From: Planctomycetota bacterium
Lineage (GTDB): Bacteria > Planctomycetota > UBA1135 > GCA-002686595
Length of the DNA: 64,000 nucleotides
Direction: 5' to 3'
NCBI GenBank assembly: GCA_016779225.1
Contig: JADHNZ010000003.1
Span: forward strand, 1-64,000
In this document: positions 42,871 through 63,747 of the stretch, in pieces
Layout: every line of letters starts with the position of its first letter
How positions within the stretch are numbered: position 1 is the first letter of the stretch
Translations under genes and position numbers: made by a program
The notes under the pieces: generated by a model
What the model was told of the DNA's origin: nothing
What the model saw: only the letters and a program-made list of their open reading frames with translations
Database searches by the model: none

Positions 42871-43338
42871 CTAGCCGAGGTCGAGCGCGTAGTGCAGCTC
42901 GTCGGTGTCGCTCAGGTCGTCGAGAGCGCGCACCCCGCCCGTGAAGACGAAGCCCAGGCGCTCGTAGACCCGGTGCGCCGTCGTGAAGCGCGTGTCCGTC
43001 CACAGCTCGACCCGGCGGGCCCCCGCCTCACGCGCGCTGTCGAGGACCTGCTCCACCAGGCGCCGGCCCCAGCCGCGACCCCGCAGCCTCGCGTCGAGAT
43101 AGCACTTGCGCAGCATCACGACGCCGTCGTCCCGCGTCGTGAGCGCGATGCAGCCCCGAGCGTGGCCCTCATGCTCGACCACCCAGCCACGCTCGAGCGC
43201 GGAGGCCGGCGCGCGCAGCCAGGGCTCCTCGGCGTCCACATCGAGCACGCAGCCGGGGTACTCGGCGAAGACGCCGCCGAGGAGCCGGATCAGGTCAGGC
43301 CCATCCCGGTCCTCGATCTCCCGCAGGAAGGCGTCCAT
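42871..43338 (-). CDS. GNAT family N-acetyltransferase
   Basis: 155 residues from MDAFLREIEDRDGPDL. The fold is GNAT throughout: GWVVEHEGHARGCIALT, then the acetyl-CoA loop VVMLRKCYLDARLRGRGWGRRLVEQVL with the R/Q-x-x-G-x-G/A signature, here RGRGWG, and AGARRVELWTDTRF, AHRVYERLGFVFTGG. It transfers an acetyl group to an amine; the substrate is unknown. It lies 34 nt downstream of the sulfatase-like gene on the same strand and is probably the last gene of the long glycan operon, although its link to the pathway is not shown. Confidence 0.9.
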   Translation of the reverse strand: MDAFLREIEDRDGPDLIRLLGGVFAEYPGCVLDVDAEEPWLRAPASALERGWVVEHEGHARGCIALTTRDDGVVMLRKCYLDARLRGRGWGRRLVEQVLDSAREAGARRVELWTDTRFTTAHRVYERLGFVFTGGVRALDDLSDTDELHYALDLG

Positions 43339-43372
43339 GCGCGCAGGGTAGCGCGAGGCGGGGTCGCGGCCC

Positions 43373-47045: not shown

Positions 47046-49347
47046 GGCAGACCTCCTTGCGCAGGCCCCCTCGCGCCAGGTCCATGAGCCCCGGGACCAG
47101 TCCTACCCAGCGCGGCCTCATCCGGTAGACGAGCGCGAGCCGCAGGGCCGTCGAGCGCTCGTAGAACTCGAGCGCGATGGGGTCGAGGACGCCGCCCGTA
47201 GCGTCGTGCCCCTCAAGGAGGGCAGCGCGCGCGCTCCAGGCCTCCTCCACCGAGCCTCGTCCCTGCCACGCCCGCAGCACCAGGTGGACGCCGAGGTTGC
47301 CGAGGTCGAGCTCCGGGGCGCCGGCGCTCAGCAGGTCGAGGTCGAGGAGCAGGATCGAGCCGTCCCCCGCCTGCAGGAGCTGGCCGTCGTGCAGGTCCCG
47401 ATGCACCGCGGTCCAGACCGGCACGGCCGGCAGGAGGTCGGTCAGGTCCACATGGACGCGCTCGATCCCCAGGGGCAGGTCGAGGCCTGCAAGGGCCTGG
47501 CGCATGCCGAGGGTCTCGATGACCTGCAGCTCGTCCTCGGGCCCGTGACGGGGCAGGTCCTGGTGCGGCACGAGCCGCTGCAGGTCCGCGATGGCCGCCC
47601 CCACGGCACGCCAGGCAGACGCGTGGCCAAGCTCCAGGGGGCTCCCCGTGCTCCACGCGAACTCCACCAGGCCCTCGCGGCGATCGGCACCCAGGACCTC
47701 GGGCACCCGCAGGGTCGCGGCCTGCTCCGCCGCCGCCGCACAGCGCGCGAAGCGATCCAGCAGGACATCGAGCTTCTTGGGGCGCACGGCCTTCACCGCT
47801 CGCGAGCGGTCCGCGCTGCGCCAGGCCGCCCGTCGCCCGGGCCGCCACGCCAGCAGCTCACCCTCTCCGAGCGCGGTCCGCCCGGGCAGGGCCTCGTCGT
47901 CCTCGAAGCACAGCGGCTCCCACTCACCGTCCAGAGGGCGGCCGTGGAAGGTGCGGCCGCTGGCAGCCTCGACCTCCAGGACGAGGCGTCCGCTCTTCTG
48001 AGCCTCGGCACGAACCACCGCGTCTCCATCCACGCCCTCGGGGAGCGGGATGCCCAGGCTCCCCACCGGGGTCAGCCGCGCAAGGTGCTCCAGGCGGCGG
48101 GCGTCGTCGAGCAGGGCACGGGCGCACGCCTCGGCCCCCTCCTCCATCCTGCGCAGGGTGTTGGCCGCGCGCACGATGCAGGCCCGCAGCAGCAGCTGGT
48201 CGATGCGCCGTGAGCTGAGGGGCTGGCCGCCAGCCGCGGCGTAGGCCTCGAGGAGCAGGTCCCGCGCGCGCGAGGTGGGGCCACCATCCAGGTGCAGGTC
48301 CATGAGCCAGTCGGCCACATCCTCCTCCGGCTCTCCACCTCGCAGCGCGTCGAGGTCGAGCAGCACCAGCTCGCCCTCGGGCGTCTCGAGCCACTGGCCC
48401 GCGTGCTGGTCGCCGTGAATGAGGCAGCGCGCGCGCGAGGGCGGAACGCTGGTCAAGAGGCGCACCGCCTCCTCGTGCAGGTCGGGGTCGAGCCGGGCGA
48501 GCAGGCTCAGGTCGGGGCTCGGCGCAGAGGCCTCCAGCTCGCCGCAGCCGCGGCGGTGCAGCAGGGCCAGGGCACGCCCGACCCGCGGCGCGGCCTCGAG
48601 GGTGTCACCCGCCAGGGGCTGGCCCTCGACCCACTCCTCGAGCAGGATCCCCGCCTCCTCGTCCACGCCAAGCAGGCGCGGCGTGCGCGGACCCTCCGCA
48701 GCCCCGAGCAGCGCCCTGGCCTCGACCACCTTGCGGGCCTCCTCCGGCTCGAGGACCCGAACGCCGACGCGACGCGAGGAGCGCTGCCCCTCGGGCCCCT
48801 TGAGCGACAGGTGAGCGACCATCACGGCCCTGCGCTCGGGCTTGTAGCGCAGGGGCTCGAAGTGCGAGCGACGCCGCCGAACATCATGCGGCGCGAACAG
48901 GTCCAGCTCCTTGATCCAGCGGATCGTCCGCTTGTCATCCAGCGCCCGCTCGAGGCCGCGCAGGACCCGGTCCCGCGGGAAGGCGACGAGCTGTGCGCCA
49001 TCCGCGAGCAGCACGGCCGGGCGCAGGCGATGCTCGAGCGCCGCACGCCAGGGGCGCGCTGCCAGGCTCGCCTCGTGGCGGCGGGCCTTGCCCGAGAGGT
49101 GCTTCTTCCAGGTCACCCAGCGCTCGTGTCCGTCGGCCCAGCGCACCGCATAGCAGGTGGCCGCCGCGACCCCGAGCTTCCAGCGCGCGTGGACCTGGCT
49201 GATCTCGACCGGGGGCTCGCTGCCGGGCGCGAGCATCAGCTCGGACACGAGCCGCAGGATCTCCAACTCGGTCGGGGGGACCAGCTCCCCGTCCCCCATG
49301 CGGGCCGGCAGGTGCCGGTCCCGATCCCGTGCACGCAGCCCGGTCAT
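47038..49347 (-). CDS. Tandem APH-fold (aminoglycoside phosphotransferase-like) double kinase
   Basis: 769 residues with two kinase-like halves. The first (about 1-400) has RYKPERRAVM, LLEEWVEGQPLAG, the catalytic loop CLIHGDQHAGQWL and metal loop LVLLDLDALRGG. The second (about 470-769) has AVKAVRPKKLDVLLDRFARC, the loop TAVHRDLHDGQLL and ILLLDLDLLSAG. Both keep the H-x-D and D-x-D residues needed for catalysis. Aminoglycoside resistance is unlikely in this setting. A sugar, lipid or choline-like kinase acting on a glycan precursor fits better. ATG overlaps the ABC transporter stop (49344-49347). An internal duplication with both sites kept is unusual. Confidence 0.82.
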   Translation of the reverse strand: MTGLRARDRDRHLPARMGDGELVPPTELEILRLVSELMLAPGSEPPVEISQVHARWKLGVAAATCYAVRWADGHERWVTWKKHLSGKARRHEASLAARPWRAALEHRLRPAVLLADGAQLVAFPRDRVLRGLERALDDKRTIRWIKELDLFAPHDVRRRRSHFEPLRYKPERRAVMVAHLSLKGPEGQRSSRRVGVRVLEPEEARKVVEARALLGAAEGPRTPRLLGVDEEAGILLEEWVEGQPLAGDTLEAAPRVGRALALLHRRGCGELEASAPSPDLSLLARLDPDLHEEAVRLLTSVPPSRARCLIHGDQHAGQWLETPEGELVLLDLDALRGGEPEEDVADWLMDLHLDGGPTSRARDLLLEAYAAAGGQPLSSRRIDQLLLRACIVRAANTLRRMEEGAEACARALLDDARRLEHLARLTPVGSLGIPLPEGVDGDAVVRAEAQKSGRLVLEVEAASGRTFHGRPLDGEWEPLCFEDDEALPGRTALGEGELLAWRPGRRAAWRSADRSRAVKAVRPKKLDVLLDRFARCAAAAEQAATLRVPEVLGADRREGLVEFAWSTGSPLELGHASAWRAVGAAIADLQRLVPHQDLPRHGPEDELQVIETLGMRQALAGLDLPLGIERVHVDLTDLLPAVPVWTAVHRDLHDGQLLQAGDGSILLLDLDLLSAGAPELDLGNLGVHLVLRAWQGRGSVEEAWSARAALLEGHDATGGVLDPIALEFYERSTALRLALVYRMRPRWVGLVPGLMDLARGGLRKEVCLA

Positions 49348-51134
49348 GACGCCCGCACGGCGGCGCCGCCGTCCCCGAAGTCCTCGCGATACTCCGCGCT
49401 CGCGCGCGCAAGCTCCTGGTGCGAGCCGGACAGGACGGGCGCGCCCTCACGCACCCACACGACCTGGTCGAACCCGTCGAGGTGCTCCTGGTCGTGGGTG
49501 ACGACGATCACGATCGCGCGCTCGGCGCGGGCCCTGAGGGCGTTGAACACATGGCGGGCCGCCGCTGCGTCGAGGCCTGCAAAGGGCTCGTCCACCACCA
49601 GGACCCCCGCCTCGCGCAGGAAGGCCCGCGCAAGGCACAGCCGCCTGCGCTGGCCTCCAGAGAGTCCAAGGCCCGAGGAGCCCAGCACCGTGTCGAGCCC
49701 GTCGGGCATGGCGTCCACCACGCTGCGCGCGTAGGCGTCCTCGAGGGCCCGCTCCAGAGCCGCGTCGTCAGCCTCGGGCGCGGCGAGGAGCAGGTTCTCC
49801 CGCACGCTGGTCCCGAACAGGACCGCGTCCTGGAGGGCCGCGGCGAGGCCCTCTCGGAGGGCGTCGAGCCGGTACGAGGGCAGGGGCTCACCGTCCAGGA
49901 GCACGCGCCCCTCGGTCGGATCCATGAGCCGCAGCAGGAGGGCGATCAGGGTGCTCTTGCCTGCACCGCTCGCGCCGATCAGGGCCGTCAGCTCACCGCG
50001 CCGGAAGCACGCATCCACCCCCTGCAGGGCGACGCGACCGTCGGGGTAGGCGTACTGCACGCCCTGGAGCTCCACCTGCTTGGGATGGGCGGCGGGCTCG
50101 CGGGTGCCCTGGTTCTCGCGCACGGGGGAGCGCTCGGCCATCACCTCGAGCAGGCGCTCGGCGCAGGCCACCCCCTTGGCCACGCGTGCCTGGTGCTTGG
50201 CCGCGGCGCGCGCCGGCTTGAGGAGGCCGCGCACATACGACATGAACACCAGCAGTTCGCCCGGGCTGAGCGCGCCGTCCAGGACACGCTGGCCACCCAG
50301 GGCCAGGGTCACGGCCACGCCCAGGGTCAGGAGCGACTCCACCGAGGCCGACAGGCGCGCCGCCGCCCGAGCCGCCTTGAGCTCCGCCCGCGCGCTGCGC
50401 CGGTTATCGCGCGCGAAGCGGTGTGCGATCTCCTCCTCGCGGCCGAGGGACTGGACCAGGGTCACGGCCCCCACGGCCTCGCCAAGGAAGTCGGCCAGGG
50501 CGCCCTCCTTGCGGCGCTGCTTGCGAATCGCCACCGACAGTCGCCGCGAGAGCACGCGCACGACGATGCCGAGGGCGGGCACCAGCGCCATCAGGGTCAG
50601 GGTCAGGCCGGCATCCACGCGCACCATCACGGCCAGGACCACCAGGGCGTGCAGGCTGCGGGCGAGGAGGTTCGTCGAGGCCTCGACCAGCATGGTCTTG
50701 ACCATCGGAGCATCCCCCATGAGGCGCATCAGCAGGTCGCCGCTGCGCTGCTCGCCGTGGAAGGCCGGCGGCAGCTCGAGCAGCCGGCGGAACAGGAGCA
50801 TCCGCAAGGCGCGCGTGACCCGGTGCCCAACGCGAGCGATCAGCAGGTTGGCGGCGTACTCCGCCACCACCCGTGCGAGGACGACTCCGAGGAGGACTGC
50901 CGCGCAGAGGAGCAGCAGGCGCGTGCCCTCGTCCTCCACTGCAGCGCCTCCGAGCACCGGAGAGAGCACGCGGTCGAACGCCACCTGCATGGGCCAGGGC
51001 TGCAGCACCGACAGCCCCACCACGAGCAGCTGCAGCCCGACGGCTGCAGCAAGGGCCGCGCGATGCGGCGTCAAGACAAAGGCGAGCCGACTTCCGACGC
51101 GCCATGCCTCCAGGGTCCGCGCCAGGGCCTTCAT
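49344..51134 (-). CDS. ABC exporter, fused permease and ATPase (MsbA-type)
   Basis: 596 residues. Residues about 1-320 hold six helices of a type IV exporter (LQLLVVGLSVLQPWPMQVAF, LLLLCAAVLLGVVLARVVAE) and the coupling segment LPPAFHGEQRSGDLLMRLM. The nucleotide-binding domain has Walker A IGASGAGKSTLI, a Q-loop (AALQDAVLFGTSVREN), signature LGLSGGQRRRL, Walker B VLVVDEPFAGLD and the switch His in VVTHDQEH. It should work as a homodimer to flip a lipid or lipid-linked glycan. It lies between glycosyltransferase and kinase genes with ATGA overlaps on both sides, pointing to export of the product made by the same operon. Confidence 0.95.
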   Translation of the reverse strand: MKALARTLEAWRVGSRLAFVLTPHRAALAAAVGLQLLVVGLSVLQPWPMQVAFDRVLSPVLGGAAVEDEGTRLLLLCAAVLLGVVLARVVAEYAANLLIARVGHRVTRALRMLLFRRLLELPPAFHGEQRSGDLLMRLMGDAPMVKTMLVEASTNLLARSLHALVVLAVMVRVDAGLTLTLMALVPALGIVVRVLSRRLSVAIRKQRRKEGALADFLGEAVGAVTLVQSLGREEEIAHRFARDNRRSARAELKAARAAARLSASVESLLTLGVAVTLALGGQRVLDGALSPGELLVFMSYVRGLLKPARAAAKHQARVAKGVACAERLLEVMAERSPVRENQGTREPAAHPKQVELQGVQYAYPDGRVALQGVDACFRRGELTALIGASGAGKSTLIALLLRLMDPTEGRVLLDGEPLPSYRLDALREGLAAALQDAVLFGTSVRENLLLAAPEADDAALERALEDAYARSVVDAMPDGLDTVLGSSGLGLSGGQRRRLCLARAFLREAGVLVVDEPFAGLDAAAARHVFNALRARAERAIVIVVTHDQEHLDGFDQVVWVREGAPVLSGSHQELARASAEYREDFGDGGAAVRAS

Positions 51135-52183
51135 CCCCCAGCCCCCAGGCGCAGGAGGACATCCCGCGCGATCCAGTCCCAGCCATGGCGCTTCGCCTCG
51201 GCCAGGGCCGCCGCCGCCAGCTGGTCCCGGCGCGCAGGATCACGCGCCAGCCCGAGCAGGCGCTCCGCCAGGGCGGCCTCGTCACCGGGCGGATAGACCT
51301 CGCCCGCACGACCACCGAGGACCGCGAGGGGCAGGTCACCCAGGTCCGGGACCACGGGGACGAGGCCCATTGCCATAGCCTCGCGCAGCTTGAGCGGCGA
51401 GAACCAGGCAGCCTCGCGGCTGGAGTGGGCCAGGGCGATCACATCGCAGGCACCCACGCGCCACGCGACCCGCTCCGGCTCGCACCAGCCCGCGAGCCGC
51501 ACCGCCTCGGCCGGCAGGGCCGCGCAGGCCTCCTCGAAGTCTCCCTTGCCCACGCACACGAGCACCAGTGGCGCGCCCAGCGCGCGCGCGCGCGCAGCGG
51601 CCCGCGCCAGCAGCGGCAGGTCGTGCCAGGGGCGCAGGCGACCGTGGAAGACCAGGGCCAGGTCACCCTCCGCAAGCTCCAGCTCCGCGCGTGCGCGTGC
51701 GCGCTCGGCGAGGGGCGCGAAGGTGTCCAGGTCGACCCCGTTGGAGTGCACGCGGGTCGCGCTCGCGCGCGCCCCCAGCTCCTCCACATAGCTCAGCAGC
51801 GGGCGAGAGACCACGGAGACCAGGGTCGCTCCCTCGAAGGCGCGCTTCCAGGCTCGGTGCACCTCCTCGCCGACCGCGGAGCCGCGGTAGCGCTCCTCCT
51901 CGCGGTCCAGGGGTGAGTTGACCTCGAGGCCGTGGGCGATGCCGCGCTCCTGGGCCCAGGCCGCAATGGGGCCCGTCCCGAGGGAGAAGCGCTCGTAGAC
52001 CGCGTCCAGGGCGCCTGCCTCCTCGAGGCGAGCGATGGCGCGCGCCGGATCAGGCTCCTCCACCCGAAGGACCTCGGCACCCTGACGCGCGAAGGCCTCG
52101 CAGAGGCGCGCGACATGCACCGCGGCCCCCTTCTCTCCACCAGACCGGATGCCCGGATCCTGGTGCACGAAGGCGATCCTCAC
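51131..52183 (-). CDS. GT4-type glycosyltransferase, GTG start
   Basis: 350 residues starting with GTG at 52183 that overlaps the upstream TGA (GTGA). The protein begins V-RIAFVHQDPGIRSGGEKGA, the N-terminal Rossmann strand and Gly-rich loop of GT-B enzymes. The C-terminal nucleotide-sugar half has LVFHGRLRPWHDLPLLARAA, VLVCVGKGDFEEACAAL, CDVIALAHSSREAAWFSPLK with the E-x7-E-like acidic pair, and LREAMAMGLVPVVPDLGDLP. It transfers a sugar in the cytoplasm to the growing glycan. No ATG exists near the domain start, which supports the coupled GTG. Sugar unknown. Confidence 0.9.
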   Translation of the reverse strand: MRIAFVHQDPGIRSGGEKGAAVHVARLCEAFARQGAEVLRVEEPDPARAIARLEEAGALDAVYERFSLGTGPIAAWAQERGIAHGLEVNSPLDREEERYRGSAVGEEVHRAWKRAFEGATLVSVVSRPLLSYVEELGARASATRVHSNGVDLDTFAPLAERARARAELELAEGDLALVFHGRLRPWHDLPLLARAAARARALGAPLVLVCVGKGDFEEACAALPAEAVRLAGWCEPERVAWRVGACDVIALAHSSREAAWFSPLKLREAMAMGLVPVVPDLGDLPLAVLGGRAGEVYPPGDEAALAERLLGLARDPARRDQLAAAALAEAKRHGWDWIARDVLLRLGAGG

Positions 52184-53403
52184 GCCTCTCTCCCGGCCAC
52201 GCAGGCCTCCTGCCACCCCTTGAGGGTCTGCGCGATCGTGGGGCCATTGAAGTGAGTGAGCGCGTGGGCGCGTCCCTCCTCGGACAGCCTGGCCCTCTCC
52301 TCGGAGGAGCCCAGGAGCTCGAGCAAGGCGCTCGCCAGCGCGTCGCTGTCCTCCTCCGGCACGAGCCGTCCGACGCGGCCCTGGTCGAGGATCTCCGGGA
52401 TACCGGTCACGGGCGTGGACACGCACGGCAACCCGCAGCCCAGGGCCTCGAGCAGCACGGTCGGGAGGGCGTCGCGGTTCCCGTCGTCCCCCACCCGGCA
52501 GGGCAGCGCGAACACGGTCGCGCGCTGCATCAGCGCGAGCACCTCACCCTGATGGAGCGCGCCCTCGAGGCGCACGAAGGCTCCGGCGTCGCGCTCTTGA
52601 ATGCGTGCCTCGAGCGCCTCGCGGGCATCGCCCTGGCCCACGATGACGCAGCGCGCTGCCGGCCGCGCGGCGCGAACCTGCACCATGGCGTCAACGAGCA
52701 GGTCGAGGCCCTTCTTCTCCACGAGCCGCCCCACGGAGAGGACCAGGTCCTCCTCGCGCGGGGCGTCGCCGGGCTGGAAGTGCTCCAGGTCGATGCCGTT
52801 GAAGAGCTTGCGCAGGCGCGGCTGGGCAGCCTCGCCGAGGAACCCGCGCAGGTGCTCGAGGTTGGCCTCGCAGACGGTGGTGGTGAACGAGCTGTCGGCG
52901 ACGATCCGCGTCAGGAGGCGCGGGTCCACCGTCGAGCGGTAGATGTCCTTCGCGTGGGCCGTGATGCTGTAGGTCGGGCCGCCGAGCTGGTGCACCAGGT
53001 GCGCGACGATGGCGGACTCGGTGGCGAAGTGGACATGCAGGTGCTGCACGCCAAGGTCACGCGTGCGGTCCAGGACATGGAGGGCCTCCCCCACCAGGCG
53101 GCCGATGCGCGGCAGCCCGAACTCCTGCAGGGGACGCACCACCGGACCCAGGGCCTCGAGCAGGCCTGCCGCCTCGGGGTCGAACACGCGCGACCAGGGA
53201 TCCAGCTCCGACCGTGAGGGCAGCAGCTCGACCTCGGCCCGCAGGCCCTCGAGCGCGGGGTGACGAGGCTCGTCGTCCGGAGTCCGGCGCGAGAACACGC
53301 GCAGCTGAGCGCCGAGGGCCTCCTGCTGGATGAGCTCTCCCAGGATGAAGGTCTCCGACAGGCGCGGGAACTTCTTGAGCAGGTACCCGATCAGAGGTTG
53401 CAT
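52180..53403 (-). CDS. GT4-family glycosyltransferase (colanic-acid WcaL-like)
   Basis: 407 residues. The N-terminus IGYLLKKFPRLSETFILGE is the hallmark of the WcaL/AmsK-like branch. Then HLHVHFATESAIVAHLVHQL, YSITAHAKDIYRS, LFNGIDLEHFQPG, the donor-domain strand LVLSVGRLVEKKGLDLLVDA, VIVGQGDAREAL and the acidic motif region DALPTVLLEALGCGLPCVST. It acts in the cytoplasm on a lipid-linked glycan. The start overlaps the preceding gene by 13 nt, and the stop is used by the GTG of the next gene, so translation of the three glycosyltransferase genes is closely tied. Confidence 0.94.
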   Translation of the reverse strand: MQPLIGYLLKKFPRLSETFILGELIQQEALGAQLRVFSRRTPDDEPRHPALEGLRAEVELLPSRSELDPWSRVFDPEAAGLLEALGPVVRPLQEFGLPRIGRLVGEALHVLDRTRDLGVQHLHVHFATESAIVAHLVHQLGGPTYSITAHAKDIYRSTVDPRLLTRIVADSSFTTTVCEANLEHLRGFLGEAAQPRLRKLFNGIDLEHFQPGDAPREEDLVLSVGRLVEKKGLDLLVDAMVQVRAARPAARCVIVGQGDAREALEARIQERDAGAFVRLEGALHQGEVLALMQRATVFALPCRVGDDGNRDALPTVLLEALGCGLPCVSTPVTGIPEILDQGRVGRLVPEEDSDALASALLELLGSSEERARLSEEGRAHALTHFNGPTIAQTLKGWQEACVAGREA

Positions 53404-54623
53404 GCGTGCCCTCCGAGGGAGTGGACGCGCCCCGAGTCCTCTTCACCCATCAGAGCTCCAAGCAGCTCAGCAGCGCGCTCGGCCCCCCTCAGGTCGAGCT
53501 GCATGCGGGTCGTCCGCCCCTGATCGAGGCAGGCCTCGACCGCGGCGGGGATCTCGGTCATGCCGCTCTTGACCAGGCACTCGGCCAGGCCGAGGGAGCG
53601 GAGCCTCTGAGCGCGGATGAACTGCTCGCGACGGGGCCGGGTGCGCGGGAGGAGCACCGCCGGCGTGTCGGAGTCGAGCAGCTCCGCGCAGGTGTTGTAT
53701 CCGGCCATGGAGACCACGGCATCGGCGTTCGCAATGGCGGAGCGCAGCTGGGGGTCGAACTCGGCAACCTCCACGCGATCGAGACCCGCGGCGAGCTCCC
53801 GGATCCGCTCGGACCGCTGGGGGTCCGCGAGGGGACCGGTCACGATGCGCGAGGTCCAGCGCGCCTCGCGCCCGACCAGCGAGCGCAGGTAGGCCTCGAT
53901 GCGATCGGCACCGTCGCCACCGCCGCCGGTGGTCACCAGGACCTCCGGCACCTCGCGCGACGCGGCCGGGCTCGAGGCCCGGTGCGGGCGCACGACATAG
54001 CCCACATGCTGGACGCGAGAGCGCAGCTCGGGCGGGACCGGGTACTCCTCACGCATGTCGAAGACGCGCGGGTCCCCGTAGACGAGGATGTCCTCGTAGA
54101 GCTCGCGCAGGGCGCGCCGGATCTCGGGCCGACTCCAGTCGCGCGCCACATGCAGGGGCGAGTCGATGATGTCGCGCAGGCCCAGGACGCAGGGGACCCC
54201 AGCCCGGCGGGCCGCCTCGAGGGTCGGGAGGAGCTCGCCGCCGAGCCCCACGGGCGTGTGGTCCACCAGCAGGAGGTCCGGCTCGAAGGCGTCGAAGGCC
54301 GCCCTCAGCGTCGCACAGCGCAGGTCCAACACCGGCCCGAGGGGGCCTCGCAGCTGGAGGGGCTGGTAGGCGGCGCCACGCTTGGTGACCGCCGGCAGCT
54401 TCAGGACATCGACGCCGTCCGGGAGGGGGAAGTGGGTCGCGCAGGGGGAGCCCGTCGCGATGAGGGTGGAGGCGTGGGGGTAGCGGGCCTGGATGGCCGC
54501 GGCCAGGGTCAGGCAGCGCCTCAGGTGCCCGAGGCCGAACGAGTCGTGCCCATACAGCATCACCCGGGGCCCGCCGAGGGGCTCGGCGGTCGGATCGACC
54601 GTGCTGGAGAAGGTGTGGGGCAT
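53391..54623 (-). CDS. GT28/MurG-like glycosyltransferase, first gene of the glycan operon
   Basis: 410 residues from ATG 54623 (MPHTFSSTVDP). A GTG at 54653 is in frame but coincides with the predicted sigma-54 transcription start, so it is rejected. The N-terminal half has RVMLYGHDSFGLGHLRRCLTL, the Gly-rich loop seen in MurG-like and MJ1255-like transferases, then DLLLVDHTPVGLGGELL. The C-terminal half has VLVTTGGGGDG, IVTGPL, NADAVVSMAGYNTCAELL and PAVLLPRTRPRREQFIRAQRL, the acceptor-loop pattern of GT28 enzymes. It likely starts or extends a glycan from a nucleotide sugar. A near-perfect sigma-54 promoter lies just upstream. Confidence 0.88.
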   Translation of the reverse strand: MPHTFSSTVDPTAEPLGGPRVMLYGHDSFGLGHLRRCLTLAAAIQARYPHASTLIATGSPCATHFPLPDGVDVLKLPAVTKRGAAYQPLQLRGPLGPVLDLRCATLRAAFDAFEPDLLLVDHTPVGLGGELLPTLEAARRAGVPCVLGLRDIIDSPLHVARDWSRPEIRRALRELYEDILVYGDPRVFDMREEYPVPPELRSRVQHVGYVVRPHRASSPAASREVPEVLVTTGGGGDGADRIEAYLRSLVGREARWTSRIVTGPLADPQRSERIRELAAGLDRVEVAEFDPQLRSAIANADAVVSMAGYNTCAELLDSDTPAVLLPRTRPRREQFIRAQRLRSLGLAECLVKSGMTEIPAAVEACLDQGRTTRMQLDLRGAERAAELLGALMGEEDSGRVHSLGGHACNL

Positions 54624-54664
54624 GACGAGAGGGCGTGAGGGTCCCGCGTTCACGGTCCTTTAGT

Positions 54665-54679
54665 GCAAGGCTCGTGCCA
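54665..54679 (-). promoter_or_regulatory. Sigma-54 promoter of the glycan operon
   Basis: The minus strand reads TGGCACGAGCCTTGC then A: every base of TGGCACG-N4-TTGCW is matched, with 10 nt between GG and GC. The predicted start at about 54653 gives a 30-nt leader to the ATG at 54623. Confidence 0.88.
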
Positions 54680-54711
54680 GGGCTAGGGGGCCGTGGCAGG
54701 GGCCGAGGCCT

Positions 54712-54748
54712 GTCTAAATTCTGGACACTGGGTCCGAAACCTGGACAC
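54712..54748. promoter_or_regulatory. Tandem GTCY-N7-GGAC palindromes: shared enhancer between divergent sigma-54 promoters
   Basis: GTCTAAATTCTGGACAC (54712-54728) and GTCCGAAACCTGGACAC (54732-54748) agree at 13 of 17 positions and are exactly 20 bp apart, on one DNA face. Each core is an imperfect palindrome, as Fis-type activators bind. Site centres lie about 66 and 86 nt upstream of the left start and 97 and 77 nt upstream of the right start, normal for sigma-54 enhancers. Confidence 0.75.
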
Positions 54749-54789
54749 GCATCCGGTTCGTGAGGGGGGTATCAAGAGTTTGTGGCCCA

Positions 54790-54804
54790 TGGCACGGGGG
54801 TTGC
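54790..54804 (+). promoter_or_regulatory. Sigma-54 promoter of the secreted-protein gene
   Basis: TGGCACGGGGGTTGC: TGGCACG and TTGC are exact and GG-N10-GC spacing is right; the next base is G rather than A/T. Predicted start about 54816. This rules out upstream in-frame start codons at 54782 for the gene that follows. Confidence 0.85.
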
Positions 54805-54850
54805 GCTGGACCTTCCAGCCGACCGCCCCGGAATGGCTCACCTCTCTCCG

Positions 54851-56437
54851 ATGAACTCAGCAGCTCTCTCCCTCGCCGGCCTGCTCCTGGCAGCAGCACC
54901 GGCCTCCGCAGACCTCCTCTCCGGCCGCGTCCTCGATGCCGCGGGGCTCCCCCTCCCCGCCTGCAACCTGGATGTCATCGATGTCGTGACGGGCAACGAC
55001 ATGGCTCTGGCCGGCGACACGACCGACGCCTCCGGCCTCTTCTCCATCGATGTCCCCACCGGGCTGTACCTGGTTCATGTGACGCCGCCTCCCGGCAGCC
55101 TCCACCTCGTGGGCGAGGTGGACGGAGTGGCGGTCATCGGGCCGACCGCCATGGGCGACATCCAGCTCGTCTCCGGCGCCCTGCTGAGCGGCATGATCCT
55201 CCTGCCCGGCGGCCTGCCGGCGGTGGGCGCCAACCTCGATATCGAGCTGGCCAACGGAGACGAGTACTTCCCCGCCGGCGACACCACCGACGATACGGGC
55301 CTCTTCTCGATGGTCGTGCCCCTGGGCGAGCTTGCGCTCCAGGTGAGGCCCGAGACCCTCACCGCCACGCTGCTGGCGCCGGTGGAGCAGGAGCTCGTGA
55401 TGGCTGCCTCGCAGGATGTGGGCACCATCCAGCTGGTCGAGGGCTTCTGGACCAGCGTCACGGTGCAGACCCAGGCGGGCGCACCCGTGTTCGGGGCCGA
55501 CCTGGATGCGTTCGACGCGGTGACGGGGACGAAGCTCTTCACCCCGGGTGACAACACGAACACCCTCGGGTTCGCGGATGTGGTCCTCCCTGCGGGGAGC
55601 TACCTGGTGGAGGTGCAGCCGCGCTTTGTGGACCGGCTGGCCGCCACCACCCTCGGCCCCGTCTCCGTGGCGGCCACCACGAGCCTCGGGACCATCCAGG
55701 TCGAGCCGGGCTTCGTGGTCACAGGGACCGTGACGGACGCCGGCGGCCAGCTCGTGGCCGAGGTCGATGTGGACGCGTTCCTCGCAGGCACGCTGACCGA
55801 GCAGACCCTCTTCGCGGACAACTCGAACGCAAGCGGCGTCTACGCCGTGATCCTCCCGGCGGGCACCTTCGACCTCGTCTTCACCCCCGATCCCCTGCTC
55901 AGCCCGGGCCTGGGGAGCGCGACGGTCACCGCCGTCAGCATCAGCGGGGACCTCGTGGTGGATGTGCAGCTCGGCTCCGGCCCCCCGGCACCGACCCTGT
56001 TCTGCGACCCGGCCAATGCCAACAGCACCGGACAGCCGGTGACCCTGGCGAGCTCCAGCTTCTCGGGCTCTGGCGTGTTCCACCTCGAAGCCACGGGCGG
56101 ACCCGCCAACCAGTTCGGCGCCTTCGTGGTCGCGGCGACTCCGAACCTCACGGGCGTCACCATCAGCCAGGGCCTCCTGTGCCTCGCTCCGCCCCTGGGG
56201 CGCTACACCTCGGCTGCTGGCGCGACGCTGAACTCCGTCGGGCGCTTCGACGCGACGGGGGTCTTCCAGAACCTCTTCGGGACCTCGACGGTCGGGACGG
56301 GCTTTGATGTGCCCGCCACCCTGCCGGCGCCCCCCGGGGGCTCCATCACGAGCGGCTCCACCTGGCACTTCCAGCTGTGGTACCGCGACCTCGGCGGCGT
56401 CTCCAACTTCTCCAACGGCATCACCGTGAGCTTCTGA
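54851..56437 (+). CDS. Secreted protein with four carboxypeptidase-regulatory-like repeats and lineage-type C-terminal domain
   Basis: 528 residues from MNSAALSLAGLLLAAAPASA, a clean signal peptide; ATG 54833 is a possible alternative start. Four related repeats of about 85 residues follow (near 24-110, 110-195, 195-280, 280-365), each with a beta-sandwich pattern such as GRVLDAAGLPLPACNLDV, AGDTTDASGLFSIDVPTG and LVEVQPRF. The last about 145 residues (from PPAPTLFCDPANANSTG to GGVSNFSNGITVSF) are a separate beta domain with GGPANQFGAFVVA and GSTWHFQLWYRDLGG, the type that ends many secreted planctomycetal proteins and may be a sorting or surface-attachment module. It is the likely target gene of the sigma-54 activator. 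Confidence 0.88.
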   Translation: MNSAALSLAGLLLAAAPASADLLSGRVLDAAGLPLPACNLDVIDVVTGNDMALAGDTTDASGLFSIDVPTGLYLVHVTPPPGSLHLVGEVDGVAVIGPTAMGDIQLVSGALLSGMILLPGGLPAVGANLDIELANGDEYFPAGDTTDDTGLFSMVVPLGELALQVRPETLTATLLAPVEQELVMAASQDVGTIQLVEGFWTSVTVQTQAGAPVFGADLDAFDAVTGTKLFTPGDNTNTLGFADVVLPAGSYLVEVQPRFVDRLAATTLGPVSVAATTSLGTIQVEPGFVVTGTVTDAGGQLVAEVDVDAFLAGTLTEQTLFADNSNASGVYAVILPAGTFDLVFTPDPLLSPGLGSATVTAVSISGDLVVDVQLGSGPPAPTLFCDPANANSTGQPVTLASSSFSGSGVFHLEATGGPANQFGAFVVAATPNLTGVTISQGLLCLAPPLGRYTSAAGATLNSVGRFDATGVFQNLFGTSTVGTGFDVPATLPAPPGGSITSGSTWHFQLWYRDLGGVSNFSNGITVSF

Positions 56438-56562: not shown

Positions 56563-58908
56563 ATGCCTCCCATGCGCACCGCTGCTGCTCTGTCCCTGCT
56601 CCTGCTCCTCGCGAGCTGCGACCGGACCTCCTTCGAGCCGGCGCCCGGTGGCGGCGGGTCGAGCGGAGGAGGCGGCTCGGGAGGGGGCGCGGTCGACGCC
56701 GCGGAGGCCCCCAAGCGTGCCTCGCTCGTGGCCGCCGCAGCGGGCGAGGACCTGGCCGTGCTGTCCTGGACCACCGCCGATGCGCCGACCCTGGGCCGCG
56801 AGTTCGCCCTGCGGGTCGCCCCCGTCGGCGTGGACCTGTCGAGCGTCACGGGGCTCAGCGGCCCAAGCCCGCTGGTCGTGGAAGGCCTCCCGCCCCTGAC
56901 GGAGCACCACGCCCAGCTGTTCCAGCGCGAGGGCCAGGGCACCTGGTCCCCCACTGGGACCCGCATGCGCTTCCGCACGGCGCCCGTGTACTTCGTCGAT
57001 CCTGCGGCCTCCGCAGCTGCCCCTTCGACGGACCCAGCGAACCCCGGGAACAGCCTCGTCTTCGCGGCGCTGTTCGCATCCCAGTCCAGCGCCAATGTCT
57101 GGGTGACCCAGGGCGACTTCGTGCAGGCGACCACGCCCACCAACGGCAGCATCCTCACGGCCCGCGGCATCTCGATCTACGGCGGCTTCGCGCAGGGCTT
57201 CACGCCGTACCTGCGCGACCCCGCGGCCCGCAGGACCCGGCTGCGGGTGGATCCAGCCACCAGCGGAGTGGTGAGCCTCGTGACCGTGGTGGCTCCCGGT
57301 GACGGCGCCGGCCTGGGCTACACGATCCTCGACGGGATCACCCTGGACGGCGGCGGCACGGCCCAGGAAGCCCTCGACACCAGCTCCGAGGTCGAGTGCC
57401 GCTCGGTCCACGCGACGGGCTGCAACCGCGGCTTCGTCCTCGAGAAGAGCACCCTCAACAGCCCGGAGTCCGCCCTGCTGTCGCACTGTAGGGCCACCGC
57501 GAACGACCTGGAGGGCATCCTCGTCCGCGGCTCGTGGCGCATGGACCTGTTCGCCTGCATCGCCACCGACAACGCGCAGGAGGGCTGTCAGTTCGACCCC
57601 CTGCAGTGCCCGCGCGGCACGAGCACAGCCTTCACGGCCAAGGCGGACCTGCGCGACTGCACCTTCGCGCGCAACGGCAGCGACGGGCTCGACATCGACC
57701 TGCGTGGACCGGAGGAGCTGACCGACGACCAGCTGCCCGGCGGCCGCTTCGAGGTGCGCGTCGAGAATGTCCTGTGCGCCGAGAACGGGGCGCTGGGGTG
57801 CCTGGTGGACATCGACTACGAGGCCTTTCGGCTCTGGTCGGTGGACCTGCTGCTGGACCATGTCGAGGCGCGCGCCAACGGCTCGGACGGGGTGCGGCTG
57901 GACCTGGACGACGGGGTGAGCGCGACGGATCCAACGCCGACCCTGGCCCTCGTCCGCGCGTCGCGGGCGAGCGCGAACCTCGGGGACGGGTTCCATGTGA
58001 GCAGCGAGAGCGAGCGAGTGCTGGTGTCCTTCGCCGGCTGCCTCGCCCAGGGCAACCGTGGCTTCGGCTTCGGGCACTCCGAGGGCGCGGCCGGCGGGAA
58101 CGCCAGCATCGTCACCAGCCACTGCGCCGTGCTCGGCAACGCGGAGGGCGGCTTCGAGGCCCATCCCCTGCAGGGCTTCCACGCCAACCCTGCGGCCTGG
58201 ATCCAGGGGAGCCCCTGGCCCGCGGGGCGCGACCTGGCGGGACTCTCCCTCAACGCCGGAGCCCTGCCGTTCGTCACGGCCGCGCGGCAGGTAGCGCGCC
58301 TCTCGGGCACGCCGAGCGCTCCGACCACCCTCGACGCCCCCCTCTTCGGAGTCGGCGCTCGCGTCGAGTGGAACGACGACGGGATCGAGCGCATCGTGTC
58401 CGCGCTCGGGACCACCAGCGTGATCCTCGACCCGTCCCCCAGCGCCCTCCCCGTCACCCTGGCCTGGTTCGAGTCCGTAGGCGTGCTTGAGGACCTGAGC
58501 CCCTCGGCGGGCTCGCCCCTTGCGAGCGCGGGAGTGACCGCGCCCGGGATCCCCGGTGCGGACCTCGGACCTGGGGGCCTGGGGCTGGCCGCGCCGGGCC
58601 TCGGCCTCGAGGAGCCCGCGGTCGCCTTCATCGGGCACCTGGCGAGCGAGGGCACCGAGCGCCGGCTGCTCGTCGTCGGCGGACTGATCGACCCGGCGTC
58701 CTTCAACGGGCGCGTGCGCGTCATGGATGGCAGTGGCGAGGACATCACCTCCGCGGCCACCCTCGTGGACGGCGGAGCGGCGATCCTGCTGACCGAGCCG
58801 AGCGGGGGCTGGAGCACCGCCGCCCGCATCGAGGTGCTCGCCGGCCTGCAGACCCTGGAGGGCGTGCCGCTGCTTGCTCCCGTGGGGCTGCGACCCGAGC
58901 TTCCCTGA
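56563..58908 (+). CDS. Parallel beta-helix lipoprotein
   Basis: 781 residues starting MPPMRTAAALSLLLLLASC, a lipoprotein signal; ATG 56572 is an alternative. A Gly/Ser linker (PGGGGSSGGGGSGGG) follows, then a fibronectin-like domain (about 50-140: LAVLSWTTADAPTLGREFAL) and a long right-handed beta-helix (about 150-560) with recurring turns such as LDGITLDGGGTAQ, LSHCRATANDLEGILV, LRDCTFARNGSDGLDI and VLCAENGALGCLVDI. C-terminal part is beta-rich with LLVVGGLIDPASFNGRV. Helices of this kind bind or cleave polysaccharides, but no pectate-lyase catalytic set is recognisable, so binding or adhesion is likelier. Probably part of the sigma-54 unit upstream or partly insulated by the hairpin. Confidence 0.82.
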   Translation: MPPMRTAAALSLLLLLASCDRTSFEPAPGGGGSSGGGGSGGGAVDAAEAPKRASLVAAAAGEDLAVLSWTTADAPTLGREFALRVAPVGVDLSSVTGLSGPSPLVVEGLPPLTEHHAQLFQREGQGTWSPTGTRMRFRTAPVYFVDPAASAAAPSTDPANPGNSLVFAALFASQSSANVWVTQGDFVQATTPTNGSILTARGISIYGGFAQGFTPYLRDPAARRTRLRVDPATSGVVSLVTVVAPGDGAGLGYTILDGITLDGGGTAQEALDTSSEVECRSVHATGCNRGFVLEKSTLNSPESALLSHCRATANDLEGILVRGSWRMDLFACIATDNAQEGCQFDPLQCPRGTSTAFTAKADLRDCTFARNGSDGLDIDLRGPEELTDDQLPGGRFEVRVENVLCAENGALGCLVDIDYEAFRLWSVDLLLDHVEARANGSDGVRLDLDDGVSATDPTPTLALVRASRASANLGDGFHVSSESERVLVSFAGCLAQGNRGFGFGHSEGAAGGNASIVTSHCAVLGNAEGGFEAHPLQGFHANPAAWIQGSPWPAGRDLAGLSLNAGALPFVTAARQVARLSGTPSAPTTLDAPLFGVGARVEWNDDGIERIVSALGTTSVILDPSPSALPVTLAWFESVGVLEDLSPSAGSPLASAGVTAPGIPGADLGPGGLGLAAPGLGLEEPAVAFIGHLASEGTERRLLVVGGLIDPASFNGRVRVMDGSGEDITSAATLVDGGAAILLTEPSGGWSTAARIEVLAGLQTLEGVPLLAPVGLRPELP

Positions 58909-58960: not shown

Positions 58961-58975
58961 GTCCGAATCTTGGAC
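58961..58975. promoter_or_regulatory. GTCC-N7-GGAC site over the activator's own promoter
   Basis: GTCCGAATCTTGGAC agrees at 13 of 15 positions with the enhancer copy GTCCGAAACCTGGAC at 54732-54746. It ends 2 nt before a TAGGCT -10 hexamer, covering the -35 region, so binding would block RNA polymerase and cause self-repression. Confidence 0.7.
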
Positions 58976-58992: not shown

Positions 58993-61900
58993 ATGGACAG
59001 CGCGGCGCGGACCCTGCCCGACGGGACCCCCCTCCCCGACGGCCTCGTGCACGAGGCCGTTCTCGCCCAGCGACCCGAGAGCCTCGTGCTCAAGGTCCGC
59101 GACGGGGAGCGCCCTCTGGTCCTGCGCGTGTTCCCCGCGGCGGCGGATCTCGGCCTGCTCGCCGGGCGGCTCGCCAGAATCCGCCACCCGCACCTCGCCC
59201 TCCCCGAGCGCTGGGGCACCACGGCCAGCGGCGGCGCCTGGGTGGCGCGCCCGTTCCACGAGGGGCACACGCTCGAGGCCGGTGCACCCCTGGACGGGGA
59301 GGCCCTCGCGCGCGTGGCAAGCGAGGTCCTGCTCGGGCTCGAAGCCCTCCACGACCACGGCCTCGTCCACCGCGACCTCAAGCCGGCGAATGTGCTGCTC
59401 ACGGAGAGTGGCGCGCTGCTGATCGACATGGACCTGGTGGGCGTGGCGAGCGAGGGCCGGGGAGCAGGGACCCCCGGCTTCCTTGCGCCCGAGGTCTTGG
59501 GGGGCAGCGCAGCGCGCCCCGCGAGCGACCTCTTCGCCCTCGGCGTGACCGTGGTCCACGGTGCGGGGCTCCTTCCGGACCGCGGCCTCGAGCTCCGCTT
59601 CCCCGCGGCCTCCTGGTGGGAGGCTGCACGCCTCGACCCGGCTCAGCTGCCCGCCGAGGTGCGCGCCTTCGTGGAGGCGGCCGTCCACCGCAGCCCGGGT
59701 GCCCGCCCCCTCGATGCGCGCAGCGCGCGCCTGCTGCTCCCCGGCGCCCCCCAGGGGCTCCGCCGGATCCCACCGCTGCCGGATCTCCCAAGCGATGGAG
59801 CCCGGATCCACCAGGCCGCCCGAGTCCTGCAGGACGGCGGCTCGGTCCTCCTTCGCGTGGCGTTCCCCGAGGAGCTGGAGTCCGCCCAGCGCGCCCTGCA
59901 GGCAGCCGCCGTTCAGCTCGGGCTGCGCCCCGAGCTGCTCTCGGCCGCGGCGGCTGCGGACCTGGCTCGCCCTCAGCGTGGCCACCGCATCGTGCTGGCG
60001 CGGCCGCGGCTCTCCACCGAGGCGCTGGCCGCGGACCTGGTGCGCCGGACCGAGTCCCCCACGGCGTGGGTCGTGGGTCCCGAGCACGGTGCGCACCTGG
60101 ATGCCGCGCTGCGGCAGGCCGGTGTGCGCTGCGCCGTCGTCGAGGTCGGACGCGTCGAGGCACGCGAGCTCGCGACACACCTGGACGCCGCGACCGGACA
60201 CAGTCAGCCCGCCGCCGCCGCCGCGCTGGCGCGCGACCTCTGCGAGCGCTCGGAGGGCCGCGCGAGCGTGCTGGCCCTTGCCCTACGCACCGCCGTCGAG
60301 GTGGGCGCGGCCGAGGTGCAGGGGGATGGCCTCGTCCTGCGCGCGGACCGCTGGCCCTCGTCCCTCGAGGCCACCGGCCCCCCGCTGCCCGAGGATCCCG
60401 AGGCCGTCGCCCTGCTCCAGGCCCTGGCCGTACTCGGCCGCCCTGTCGCCGCCGAGCCCCTGGCCCGGCTGCTCGACCGCTCGGTGAGCAGCATCGAGCA
60501 GGCGGCCCTCGAGCTGCGGCGTGAGGGCTGGCTGAACCAGGACGGCAGCGGCCTCGTGGGCCTGGGAACGGGACTGACCTCCGAGGCCGCCGCGACCTCC
60601 CTCTCTCCAGAGCTCCGCGGGACCCTGGCCGCGCGGTGGCTCGAGGCCGAGGCCGGGCTCAGCGCGGTCGAGCGCGCCGAGCTGAGGCTGGCCGCGGGCC
60701 TCGAGCTCGATCAGGTGGCGGCTGAGGCCGCACGCCTCGCGACCGAGGGGCGGGCAGCCACGGCGCAGCGGCTGGTGGACGGCCTCCTCGCTGGCGAGGG
60801 CTCGCGTCAGGCCTTGCCCTCCGCCGTACGCGAGCGCGCGGCAGTCCTGGCGGGACGTCTGCTCCTCGCACGCGGCAACCGCGACGGCGCTCTGGGCCTG
60901 CTTGAACCGGGGGGCGCGCTCGAGGGCGCCCGCTCGGCCCCAGCTCTCCTCCTCCGCGCGGAGCTCTCCGAGGACGCCAGCGAGGCAGCAGGCCTGCGCG
61001 CGGCCGCCCTGCAGGAGCCCTCGGCCACAGCCGCCGAGCGCGATCGGGTGCGCGTCGCCGAGGCCCACGCGCAGTACCTCGCGGGAGAGCACGCCGCCGT
61101 GGTCACGCTGCTCGACGCGCTCGAGAGCCCCGAGCCCGACACCGCCGGCACGGCGGCCATGCTGCGCTTCGCCTGCGCAGCAAGCCAGGCGGACTGGCAC
61201 AGCGCCACGGTCGCCCTCGACGCCATCCCCGCAGAGCACCTGGAGCGCCTTCCCTCACTGCGCGGGCGCGCGGCCCTCAACCGCGCCTTCATGGCCCGCA
61301 GGCGCGCCCATCTTCCAGAGGCGATCCGCTCCCTGCGCGACGCGGAGGCAGCCTTCGCCCTCTGCGACGACCGCCGACAGGAGGCCCTGGCGGCCAACAA
61401 CCTTGGGGTGGTCCTCCGCGACGCAGGCGAGCTGGTGGAGGCCCGGCGCAGCCTGGGCCGCGCCCTGCGCCTCCGCCGCCAGCTGGGCGACGCGCACGGC
61501 GAGGGCTCGACCCTGGGCAGCCTGGCGCTGGTCGAGCTCGAGGCGGGACACCTGGCGCGGGCCTCGCACCGCGTGCGCGAGGCCGTGCGCGTGCTCGAGG
61601 CCGGTGGACATGTGCGGGAGCTGCAGGCCCTCGCGCCCGCGCGCCTGCTCATGGTCCTCTTCCTGCGCGGACCCAGCGCGGCGCGGGGCGCGGACCTTGC
61701 GCGCACCCTGGCGGCGGCACGCAGCGACGCGCGCGGAGCCGTCGCGCGAGCTCTCGCAGAGCTCGCCCTGGCGGAGGGACGGCGCACTGCCGCCCTGCGG
61801 CTGCTCCGCCTGGGCGCGATGGCCGCGGCCGGTGCCAACGAGGCGGAGCACTTCCGCTGCACGGCGCGGCTGGCATCCCTGGGCGCAGGATCCCGCGAGG

Positions 61901-63747
61901 CCCTCGAGGCTCTTGCCGCGCAGCTGGGCGAGGGCCGCCGCCTGGAGGCTCGCTGGCGCGGAGAGCGCTCGCTCGGCCCCGACGAGCTGCTGGCGATCCT
62001 CGCCCAGCTGCAGGCGCGAGGGCGCACCGACCTGGCCGCGGCGCTCGCGCGCAGCCTCGTGAGGGCCGCGGCCGCCAGCGGAGACGCCGACGGTCGGCGC
62101 CGCGCCGCCGCGCGGCTGGAGGAGGCCCGCCGTCAGCTCACCGAGGACCTCGACGAGGCCCTCGCCGACCAGCACTTCGAGCGCGCGACCCTCTCCGCGG
62201 GCTGGCAGCCCGGGGCCGGCTCGGGCGCATCGGACGACCAGGTCGAGTGGATCCTCGAGTGCGTGCGCACCCTGGCGTCCTCACGCGACCAGCGCGAGCT
62301 GCTCGAGCGCATCCTCGACCGCGCTCTCCTGCGGACCGGCGCCCGGAGGGGCTATGTGGTCCTGGCGAAGGGCGATCGCATCGAGACGAGCGCAGCGCGC
62401 GGGCTTGAGCTGGGAGATCCGGGCAGCGGCGACGCGGCGCTCTCCAGCTCGGTGATCCGTGCGGCCCTCGAGGACGGCGAGCCGATCTCCACCGCGAACG
62501 CCACGGGCGACTCCCGCTTCCAGGGAGAGCAGAGCGTTCGGCACCTGCAGCTACGCTCCGTGCTGTGCGTGCCGTTCCATGACCAGGGGCTCGTGCGCGG
62601 AGCGATCTATGTGGACCATGACCGTGCGGAGGCGCGCTTCGACGACGAGGATGTGCGCGCGCTGCAGGCCCTCGCCGATCCCGCGGCCATCGCCCTCAAC
62701 CAGCTCGAGGAGCGCACGCGCATCGAGCACCTGAATCGCCGGCTCGAGGAGCGCGTCGAGCTGCAGGCCAGCGAGCTCGCCCTCACGCGCCAGGTCCTCG
62801 AGCAGCGCGGCGAGCCGCGGCCTCTCCCAGGGGTGATCGGCCGCAGCCCGGCCATGAAGGCGCTGGCCGCCATGGTCGGGCGGCTGGCCCCGACGGATCT
62901 GCCCGTGGTGGTCACGGGTCCGAGCGGGTCCGGCAAGGAGCTGATCGCCCGCGCGCTGCACCACCGCAGCCACCGGGCGGACGGACCCCTGATCGCCGAG
63001 AACATGGCGGCCCTGCCGGAGGCCCTGCAGGAGGCCGAGCTGTTTGGCGCGCGGCGCGGGGCGTACACGGGGGCCACGGAGGACCGGGACGGGCTCTTCG
63101 CGCGCGCCGACGGCGGCACCCTATTCCTCGACGAGATCGCGGAGATGCCGCTCCCCCTCCAGGCGAAGCTGCTGCGGGTGCTGGAGACCGGCGAGGTGCG
63201 CCCCCTGGGCTCCGACCGGGTGCAGGCCGTGTCCTTGCGCATCGTGGCGGCGACCCACCGAGACCTCGCCGAGCGAGTCCGCGCGGGGGCCTTCCGCCAG
63301 GACCTGTTCTATCGACTCGACGGCGGCGAGCTGCGCCTCCCGCCGCTCGAGGAGCGCCTGGAGGACATCGAGCTCCTCGTGGCCCACTTCGTCGCCGAGC
63401 TCGACCGTGAGGGTGGCCACCAGAAGGCCGTGGCGGCCGAGGTGCTCGCGGCCCTGGTCCGCCGTCCCTGGCCGGGCCAGGTGCGAGAGCTGCGCAACGA
63501 GGTCACGCGCCTGTGGCACCTATCGGGGTCGGCCCTCGACGACCCGAGCCTCGTGCGCGCACCGGCGCGGACCACCCGCGAGGGGGACGGCGCCGGGAGC
63601 GAGAGCCTCCTGCTGGCCGACGCAGAGCGCCGCGCCATCGAGCGTGCGCTCGCGGCGAGTGAGGGCCGCAAGGACCAGGCGGCTCGGCTGCTCGGGATCA
63701 GCCGCTCGGGCCTCTACACGAAGCTGGCCCGGCTGGGGCTCGAGTGA
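58993..63747 (+). CDS. Multidomain sigma-54 activator: kinase-like, STAND-like, TPR, GAF, AAA+, Fis HTH
   Basis: 1584 residues. Kinase-like 20-230: catalytic loop HRDLKPAN (126-133) and APE (165-167) are present, but the beta-3 Lys is Arg45 (PLVLRVF) and DFG is DMD (145-147), so activity is doubtful. Residues 270-600 resemble a STAND ATPase with no P-loop. TPR-like helices run to about 980 (NNLGVVLRDAGELVEARRSL). GAF is about 1090-1240 (RSVLCVPFHDQGLVRGAIYV), then a coiled coil. The sigma-54 AAA+ domain has Walker A GPSGSGKE (1309-1316), GAYTGA (1356-1361), GTLFLDEIAEMPLPLQ, and a C-terminal Fis HTH (DQAARLLGISRSGLYTKLA). AAA+ and HTH look fully functional. It should bind enhancers and remodel sigma-54 polymerase, probably for the operons upstream of it. 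Confidence 0.92.
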   Translation: MDSAARTLPDGTPLPDGLVHEAVLAQRPESLVLKVRDGERPLVLRVFPAAADLGLLAGRLARIRHPHLALPERWGTTASGGAWVARPFHEGHTLEAGAPLDGEALARVASEVLLGLEALHDHGLVHRDLKPANVLLTESGALLIDMDLVGVASEGRGAGTPGFLAPEVLGGSAARPASDLFALGVTVVHGAGLLPDRGLELRFPAASWWEAARLDPAQLPAEVRAFVEAAVHRSPGARPLDARSARLLLPGAPQGLRRIPPLPDLPSDGARIHQAARVLQDGGSVLLRVAFPEELESAQRALQAAAVQLGLRPELLSAAAAADLARPQRGHRIVLARPRLSTEALAADLVRRTESPTAWVVGPEHGAHLDAALRQAGVRCAVVEVGRVEARELATHLDAATGHSQPAAAAALARDLCERSEGRASVLALALRTAVEVGAAEVQGDGLVLRADRWPSSLEATGPPLPEDPEAVALLQALAVLGRPVAAEPLARLLDRSVSSIEQAALELRREGWLNQDGSGLVGLGTGLTSEAAATSLSPELRGTLAARWLEAEAGLSAVERAELRLAAGLELDQVAAEAARLATEGRAATAQRLVDGLLAGEGSRQALPSAVRERAAVLAGRLLLARGNRDGALGLLEPGGALEGARSAPALLLRAELSEDASEAAGLRAAALQEPSATAAERDRVRVAEAHAQYLAGEHAAVVTLLDALESPEPDTAGTAAMLRFACAASQADWHSATVALDAIPAEHLERLPSLRGRAALNRAFMARRRAHLPEAIRSLRDAEAAFALCDDRRQEALAANNLGVVLRDAGELVEARRSLGRALRLRRQLGDAHGEGSTLGSLALVELEAGHLARASHRVREAVRVLEAGGHVRELQALAPARLLMVLFLRGPSAARGADLARTLAAARSDARGAVARALAELALAEGRRTAALRLLRLGAMAAAGANEAEHFRCTARLASLGAGSREALEALAAQLGEGRRLEARWRGERSLGPDELLAILAQLQARGRTDLAAALARSLVRAAAASGDADGRRRAAARLEEARRQLTEDLDEALADQHFERATLSAGWQPGAGSGASDDQVEWILECVRTLASSRDQRELLERILDRALLRTGARRGYVVLAKGDRIETSAARGLELGDPGSGDAALSSSVIRAALEDGEPISTANATGDSRFQGEQSVRHLQLRSVLCVPFHDQGLVRGAIYVDHDRAEARFDDEDVRALQALADPAAIALNQLEERTRIEHLNRRLEERVELQASELALTRQVLEQRGEPRPLPGVIGRSPAMKALAAMVGRLAPTDLPVVVTGPSGSGKELIARALHHRSHRADGPLIAENMAALPEALQEAELFGARRGAYTGATEDRDGLFARADGGTLFLDEIAEMPLPLQAKLLRVLETGEVRPLGSDRVQAVSLRIVAATHRDLAERVRAGAFRQDLFYRLDGGELRLPPLEERLEDIELLVAHFVAELDREGGHQKAVAAEVLAALVRRPWPGQVRELRNEVTRLWHLSGSALDDPSLVRAPARTTREGDGAGSESLLLADAERRAIERALAASEGRKDQAARLLGISRSGLYTKLARLGLE

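Follow-up and report, generated by a model that had tools for sequence, protein, structure and literature searches.

We propose that the 228-bp intergenic region between two divergent gene sets in a Planctomycetota bacterium (so placed by its named relatives) is a shared enhancer region, from which a large regulator encoded nearby (58993-63747) would activate two sigma-54 promoters facing away from each other (probability about 0.78). The leftward promoter would serve an operon of predicted surface-polysaccharide synthesis and export genes, and the rightward promoter a gene for a secreted repeat protein. The features of the window (the whole stretch of 64,000 nucleotides that was analysed) on which this reading draws are the following.

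42871..43509, minus strand: GNAT acetyltransferase, possible eighth operon gene (Pfam PF00583; overlaps the end of the sulfatase gene)
43373..45214, minus strand: sulfatase-family hydrolase (Pfam PF00884)
45228..47045, minus strand: AlgE-type (alginate export) outer-membrane porin (Pfam PF13372)
47038..49347, minus strand: protein with APH-type phosphotransferase domains (Pfam PF01636, two stretches)
49344..51134, minus strand: ABC exporter, MsbA-like (Pfam PF00664 and PF00005; MsbA model under cut-off)
51131..52426, minus strand: GT4 glycosyltransferase, its real start likely lying downstream of 52426 (Pfam PF13692)
52180..53403, minus strand: GT4 glycosyltransferase (Pfam PF00534; closest NCBIfam model EPS_EpsE, under cut-off)
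53391..54623, minus strand: glycosyltransferase with GT28 C-terminal domain, leading the operon (Pfam PF04101)
54665..54679, minus strand: sigma-54 -24/-12 promoter of the glycan/export operon, TGGCACGAGCCTTGC (11/11 core match; kept in relatives)
54712..54726: operator 1, GTCTAAATTCTGGAC (7/8 arm bases; conserved tandem palindrome)
54732..54746: operator 2, GTCCGAAACCTGGAC (8/8 arm bases; conserved tandem palindrome)
54790..54804, plus strand: sigma-54 -24/-12 promoter of the secreted CarboxypepD_reg protein gene, TGGCACGGGGGTTGC (11/11 core match; kept in relatives)
54851..56437, plus strand: secreted protein with CarboxypepD_reg repeats (Pfam PF13620; N-terminal signal-like sequence)
56575..58908, plus strand: predicted lipoprotein that has a beta-helix region (lipobox-like LLLLASC close to the N-terminus; Pfam PF13229, weak)
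58961..58975: putative autoregulatory operator, GTCCGAATCTTGGAC, upstream of the regulator ATG (motif also at ortholog starts)
58993..63747, plus strand: sigma-54 activator with kinase-like, TPR, GAF, AAA+ (GAYTGA loop) and Fis-type HTH regions, proposed activator of both promoters (Pfam; motif alignment)

A predicted divergent sigma-54 promoter pair around two putative operators

Both -24/-12 elements lie exactly where the original prediction had put them (54679-54665 on the minus strand, 54790-54804 on the plus strand) and agree with TGGCACG-N4-TTGC at all 11 core positions, with the GG-N10-GC spacing and the TGGCAC-N5-TTGC bases that define a sigma-54 promoter. The pair is not expected from the composition of the region (p = 0.001 vs 1000 dinucleotide shuffles), and no sigma-70-like promoter was seen in the intergenic DNA. 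Across the organism's own genome (a 3.24-Mb draft, 77% complete), TGGCACRN4TTGC has four matches and its reversed control pattern none; all four stand directly upstream of gene starts, so a perfect match is a specific signal in this genome, and half of them form the pair described here. The genome also carries rpoN, whose absence the original prediction had named as evidence against itself, in two copies (G000:C89:24510-25913 and G000:C27:5624-6889, the second scoring slightly under the curated cut-off), whose products have the RpoN boxes ARRTVTKYR and ARRTVAKYR. If transcription starts ~12 nt past the GC, the predicted leaders are ~30 nt to the ATG at 54623 (minus strand) and ~35 nt to the ATG at 54851 (plus strand). 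These lengths reproduce the 30-35 nt first given for them, but the consistency check once drawn from them is weak because an alternative in-frame ATG at 54833 would shorten the rightward leader to ~18 nt.

Between the promoters, the two GTCY-N7-GGAC palindromes that had been reported 20 bp apart are indeed present, exactly 20 bp from start to start. Their centres fall ~66-97 bp upstream of both predicted starts, which fits an enhancer common to two divergent promoters. Lone GTCY-N7-GGAC matches are common (the window has 16 vs 8.1 +/- 3.75 expected), and the weight of the operator evidence rests on the tandem pair and its conservation. Genome-wide, the operator alone, searched with 2 mismatches, showed no excess over control (24 vs 31) and so cannot by itself define a regulon; when combined with a -24/-12 element, as the original prediction had suggested scanning for, it occurs in this genome only as the two combinations at this locus. 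When two-site operator scores were compared over 20 loci, a single spacing in the 15-30 bp range stood out, 20 bp (two helical turns), with 12.6/16 vs 10.45-11.3 at the others; some loci have one clear palindrome only. The selected sites also share a purine at position 5 (27/27) and a pyrimidine at position 11 (25/27), two positions that played no part in site selection, and the refined motif, as read from these sites, is GTCCR-N5-YGGAC.

The two remaining perfect sigma-54 elements of the genome lie elsewhere, before genes whose names, dnaK and fliO-like, were read from translations with no family search behind them. One (G000:C72:27084-27098, minus strand; L006, L052) stands ~30 nt upstream of dnaK, with a sigma-54 activator gene immediately upstream in the same orientation; sigma-54-dependent expression of dnaK would be unusual. 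The other (G000:C23:5005-5019, plus strand; L003, L051) precedes the fliO-like flagellar gene, on a contig that also carries flagellin, and has a different tandem palindrome upstream (GTCGGAGAGTCCGAC / GTTGGGAAATCCAAC, 19 bp apart), which suggests that another activator uses the two-turn layout as well.

How the control region is kept across the family

The gene layout (GT28, GT4, MsbA-type ABC exporter, APH-like kinase and AlgE-type porin on one side, secreted CarboxypepD_reg protein and beta-helix lipoprotein on the other) is kept in the genus and in many other genera of the family, in the latter usually without the adjacent regulator. When five genomes of the genus were aligned, the spacer had diverged and both promoters and the operator pair stood out. 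The divergent sigma-54 pair is likewise kept in most of the cluster-bearing genera examined, despite diverged spacer DNA; a central operator is retained too. We compared 17 orthologous intergenic regions with their shuffles: the sigma-54 pair reached p ≤ 0.004 in 15/17 (Fisher 8e-28) and the operator gave a Fisher value of 4e-8, figures that are indicative since related rows among the 17 make the counts overstate independence, and in two of the regions (G029 and Baikal) the best right-hand match runs into the left one, so that no true divergent pair is formed. At matching spacing, a divergent pair was found in 5 of the 154 genomes of the order; four of these are this locus and the fifth (G092) belongs to the same gene cluster, with its own palindromes. 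The convergent control pattern occurred in 0/81 family genomes. Operator arms are partly decayed (12-13/16) in G001, G002 and G004, where the sigma-54 elements have lost little or nothing, and the operators of G013 and G022 are weak. Conservation in relatives that hold the genes, on which the original prediction had staked itself, is thus borne out for the -24/-12 elements and for the operators, weak as the latter are in some.

In other genera, operator and -24/-12 element also occur together before genes for secreted proteins with signal peptides, twice in G022 (G022:C1:4505230 and 4274825; L202, L203) and once each at G026:C687:669 (L201) and G030:C24:197 (L221), and the regulon may be larger there. 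G062, which does not have this regulator, carries an operator-like site before a cytochrome-c-type gene; chance or another activator probably accounts for it. At L082, L083, L110 and L128, in MAGs labelled actinobacterial or Zixiibacteriota, the GT28-GT4-GT4-ABC core recurs, in most cases together with the APH gene and with no sigma-54 pair at any of them. No sigma-54 pair was present at the few GT28-GT4-ABC loci of other phyla that were checked.

The proposed regulator, a putative operator at its own gene and its linkage to the cluster

At 1,584 aa, the regulator carries a kinase-like domain at its N-terminus and an extended TPR region, and combines the AAA+ domain (Walker A/B and a GAFTGA-type loop) and HTH that mark a sigma-54 enhancer-binding protein. 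Its AAA+ motifs are intact (GPSGSGKE for Walker A, GAYTGA for the loop, GGTLFLDE for Walker B) and are followed by a Fis HTH; the loop reads GAFTGA in most orthologs, and Walker A, loop and Walker B are intact in all aligned orthologs but L224, a degenerate paralog. The protein scored under every NCBIfam equivalog cut-off shown. The N-terminus does not match an active Hanks-type Ser/Thr kinase: the VAIK lysine is Arg in 21/22 aligned regulators, and the kinase-like domain of the window regulator (residues ~1-250) keeps HRD and has DMD in place of DFG. Given the lysine replacement, this domain is probably a pseudokinase, here fused to a sigma-54 activator.

A third palindrome, absent from the original prediction, lies 17 bp before the regulator ATG. 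Of 22 regulator genes, 7 have an exact operator near the start (p = 7e-8, with 1.7% expected for each gene), and tandem near-copies ~19-23 bp apart occur at several of the others. At the regulator's own start, the operator overlaps the leader, as is typical of repressor sites, and no sigma-54 element was seen; because such an element is missing there, repression is likelier than activation, and the regulator would most likely limit its own expression.

Among the 81 family genomes, a regulator of this class was detected in 23/25 cluster-bearing genomes vs 16/56 others (Fisher 9e-8, with a class cut of E ≤ 1.6e-84 that was chosen after viewing the list). The query was a 334-aa AAA+/HTH piece, and the weaker cluster match of G030, where the gene order was verified, was counted as cluster-bearing. 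The pairing is not exclusive, since 16 genomes have a regulator of this type and no cluster, and G077 and G078 have the cluster with no regulator detected. The regulator gene adjoins the cluster in the genus and lies near it in G015, G030, G092 and G101; in G005 and G006, the two genomes of that genus that are without the cluster, the regulator is also absent. Altogether, the intact AAA+ domain, the operator at its own gene and its co-occurrence with the cluster support the earlier nomination of the 58993-63747 protein as candidate activator.

Proposed mechanism, rival readings and related systems

The elements with their rarity and conservation, the gene order, rpoN and the intact AAA+ motifs are direct observations; from them we infer transcription, binding, simultaneous activation and the nature of the glycan and of the signal, as follows. 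The 228-bp region would be a bidirectional, enhancer-dependent control region in which regulator dimers occupy both GTCCR-N5-YGGAC operators, two turns apart on one face of the helix. The bound dimers would nucleate an AAA+ oligomer able to remodel RNA polymerase-sigma-54 at the -24/-12 promoter on either side, in response to a single input read by the kinase-like/TPR/GAF portion. Leftward, polysaccharide synthesis and export would be switched on; rightward, the secreted repeat protein and probably the neighbouring lipoprotein. With a shared enhancer, one input should raise glycan synthesis/export and the secreted protein together, and the regulator would also sit on the operator at its own start.

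It is unlikely that both promoters are real and a different activator binds the operators, the linked regulator controlling something else. The genome does encode at least nine sigma-54 activator domains, and the cluster persists in G077 and G078 with no regulator detected, but the regulator gene itself bears the same operator in many lineages, adjoins or neighbours the cluster in the genomes named above, and is absent from same-genus genomes that are without the cluster. Somewhat less probable still are palindromes that act as repressor sites or on one side only, with the two promoters controlled separately: in most loci the operators lie between the promoters at enhancer distance from both, and the two-turn spacing suits cooperative dimers, which weighs against the repression-like position at the regulator's start and the loci that keep one clear palindrome only. 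Finally, common as single GTCY-N7-GGAC matches are, chance in GC-rich DNA is a negligible explanation when two of only four perfect -24/-12 sites in 3.24 Mb fall here and the elements are conserved over many genera, the pair being kept in relatives with diverged spacers.

The proposed activation of both promoters by the linked regulator has a parallel in E. coli, where divergent hyp/hyc sigma-54 operons share an enhancer under FhlA. The common feature is a single activator, here a proposed one, flanked by divergent -24/-12 promoters; the two cases differ in the class of activator, in operator and in cargo. The window regulator shares with enhancer-binding proteins of the NtrC/NifA/NorR type the AAA+ sigma-54 domain (Walker A/B, GAFTGA-type loop), the Fis-type HTH and a GAF domain, and differs from them in its size (~1,580 aa), its kinase-like domain without the catalytic lysine and its long TPR region.

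The nearest published logic is the PrsK/PrsR sigma-54 control of PEP-CTERM genes in Proteobacteria (PMC1569441); an RpoN-dependent PEP-CTERM gene has also been described (PMC9850573). The likeness extends to an operator followed 32-92 nt on by a -24/-12 element, a Fis-type sigma-54 activator, a secreted surface protein tied to exopolysaccharide genes, and matching phylogenetic profiles. In contrast, the window regulator has a kinase-like/TPR/GAF input where PrsR has a receiver, and the promoter region here appears bidirectional and would drive the glycan operon itself. We rejected the regulator as PrsR (249.2 bits vs the TIGR02915 cut-off of 502.6; no receiver domain) and the locus as a member of the PrsR/PEP-CTERM system, given an activator under cut-off and without receiver domain and secreted proteins without PEP-CTERM; NCBIfam models, PEP-CTERM included, gave no match to either of the two secreted proteins. 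A literature search that covered few subscription papers returned no account of this regulator class or cluster in Planctomycetota.

We see an even chance that the locus represents a family-wide regulon, in which a sigma-54 activator of pseudokinase type links the assembly of an uncharacterised exported polysaccharide to the secretion of a protein partner, and to which some genera add secreted proteins. If true, this would be a counterpart of PrsR/PEP-CTERM control that uses another sensor and dispenses with the PEP-CTERM tag. The locus supplies a predicted operator and a predicted target for large kinase-like sigma-54 activators, a class so far unstudied, and defines a candidate cluster for glycan export that is conserved in uncultured Planctomycetota; the operator with its 20-bp spacing offers a direct, testable handle on which secreted proteins work with the glycan. 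The locus is in line with the idea that the cell exterior is frequently under sigma-54 control (PMC3162934).
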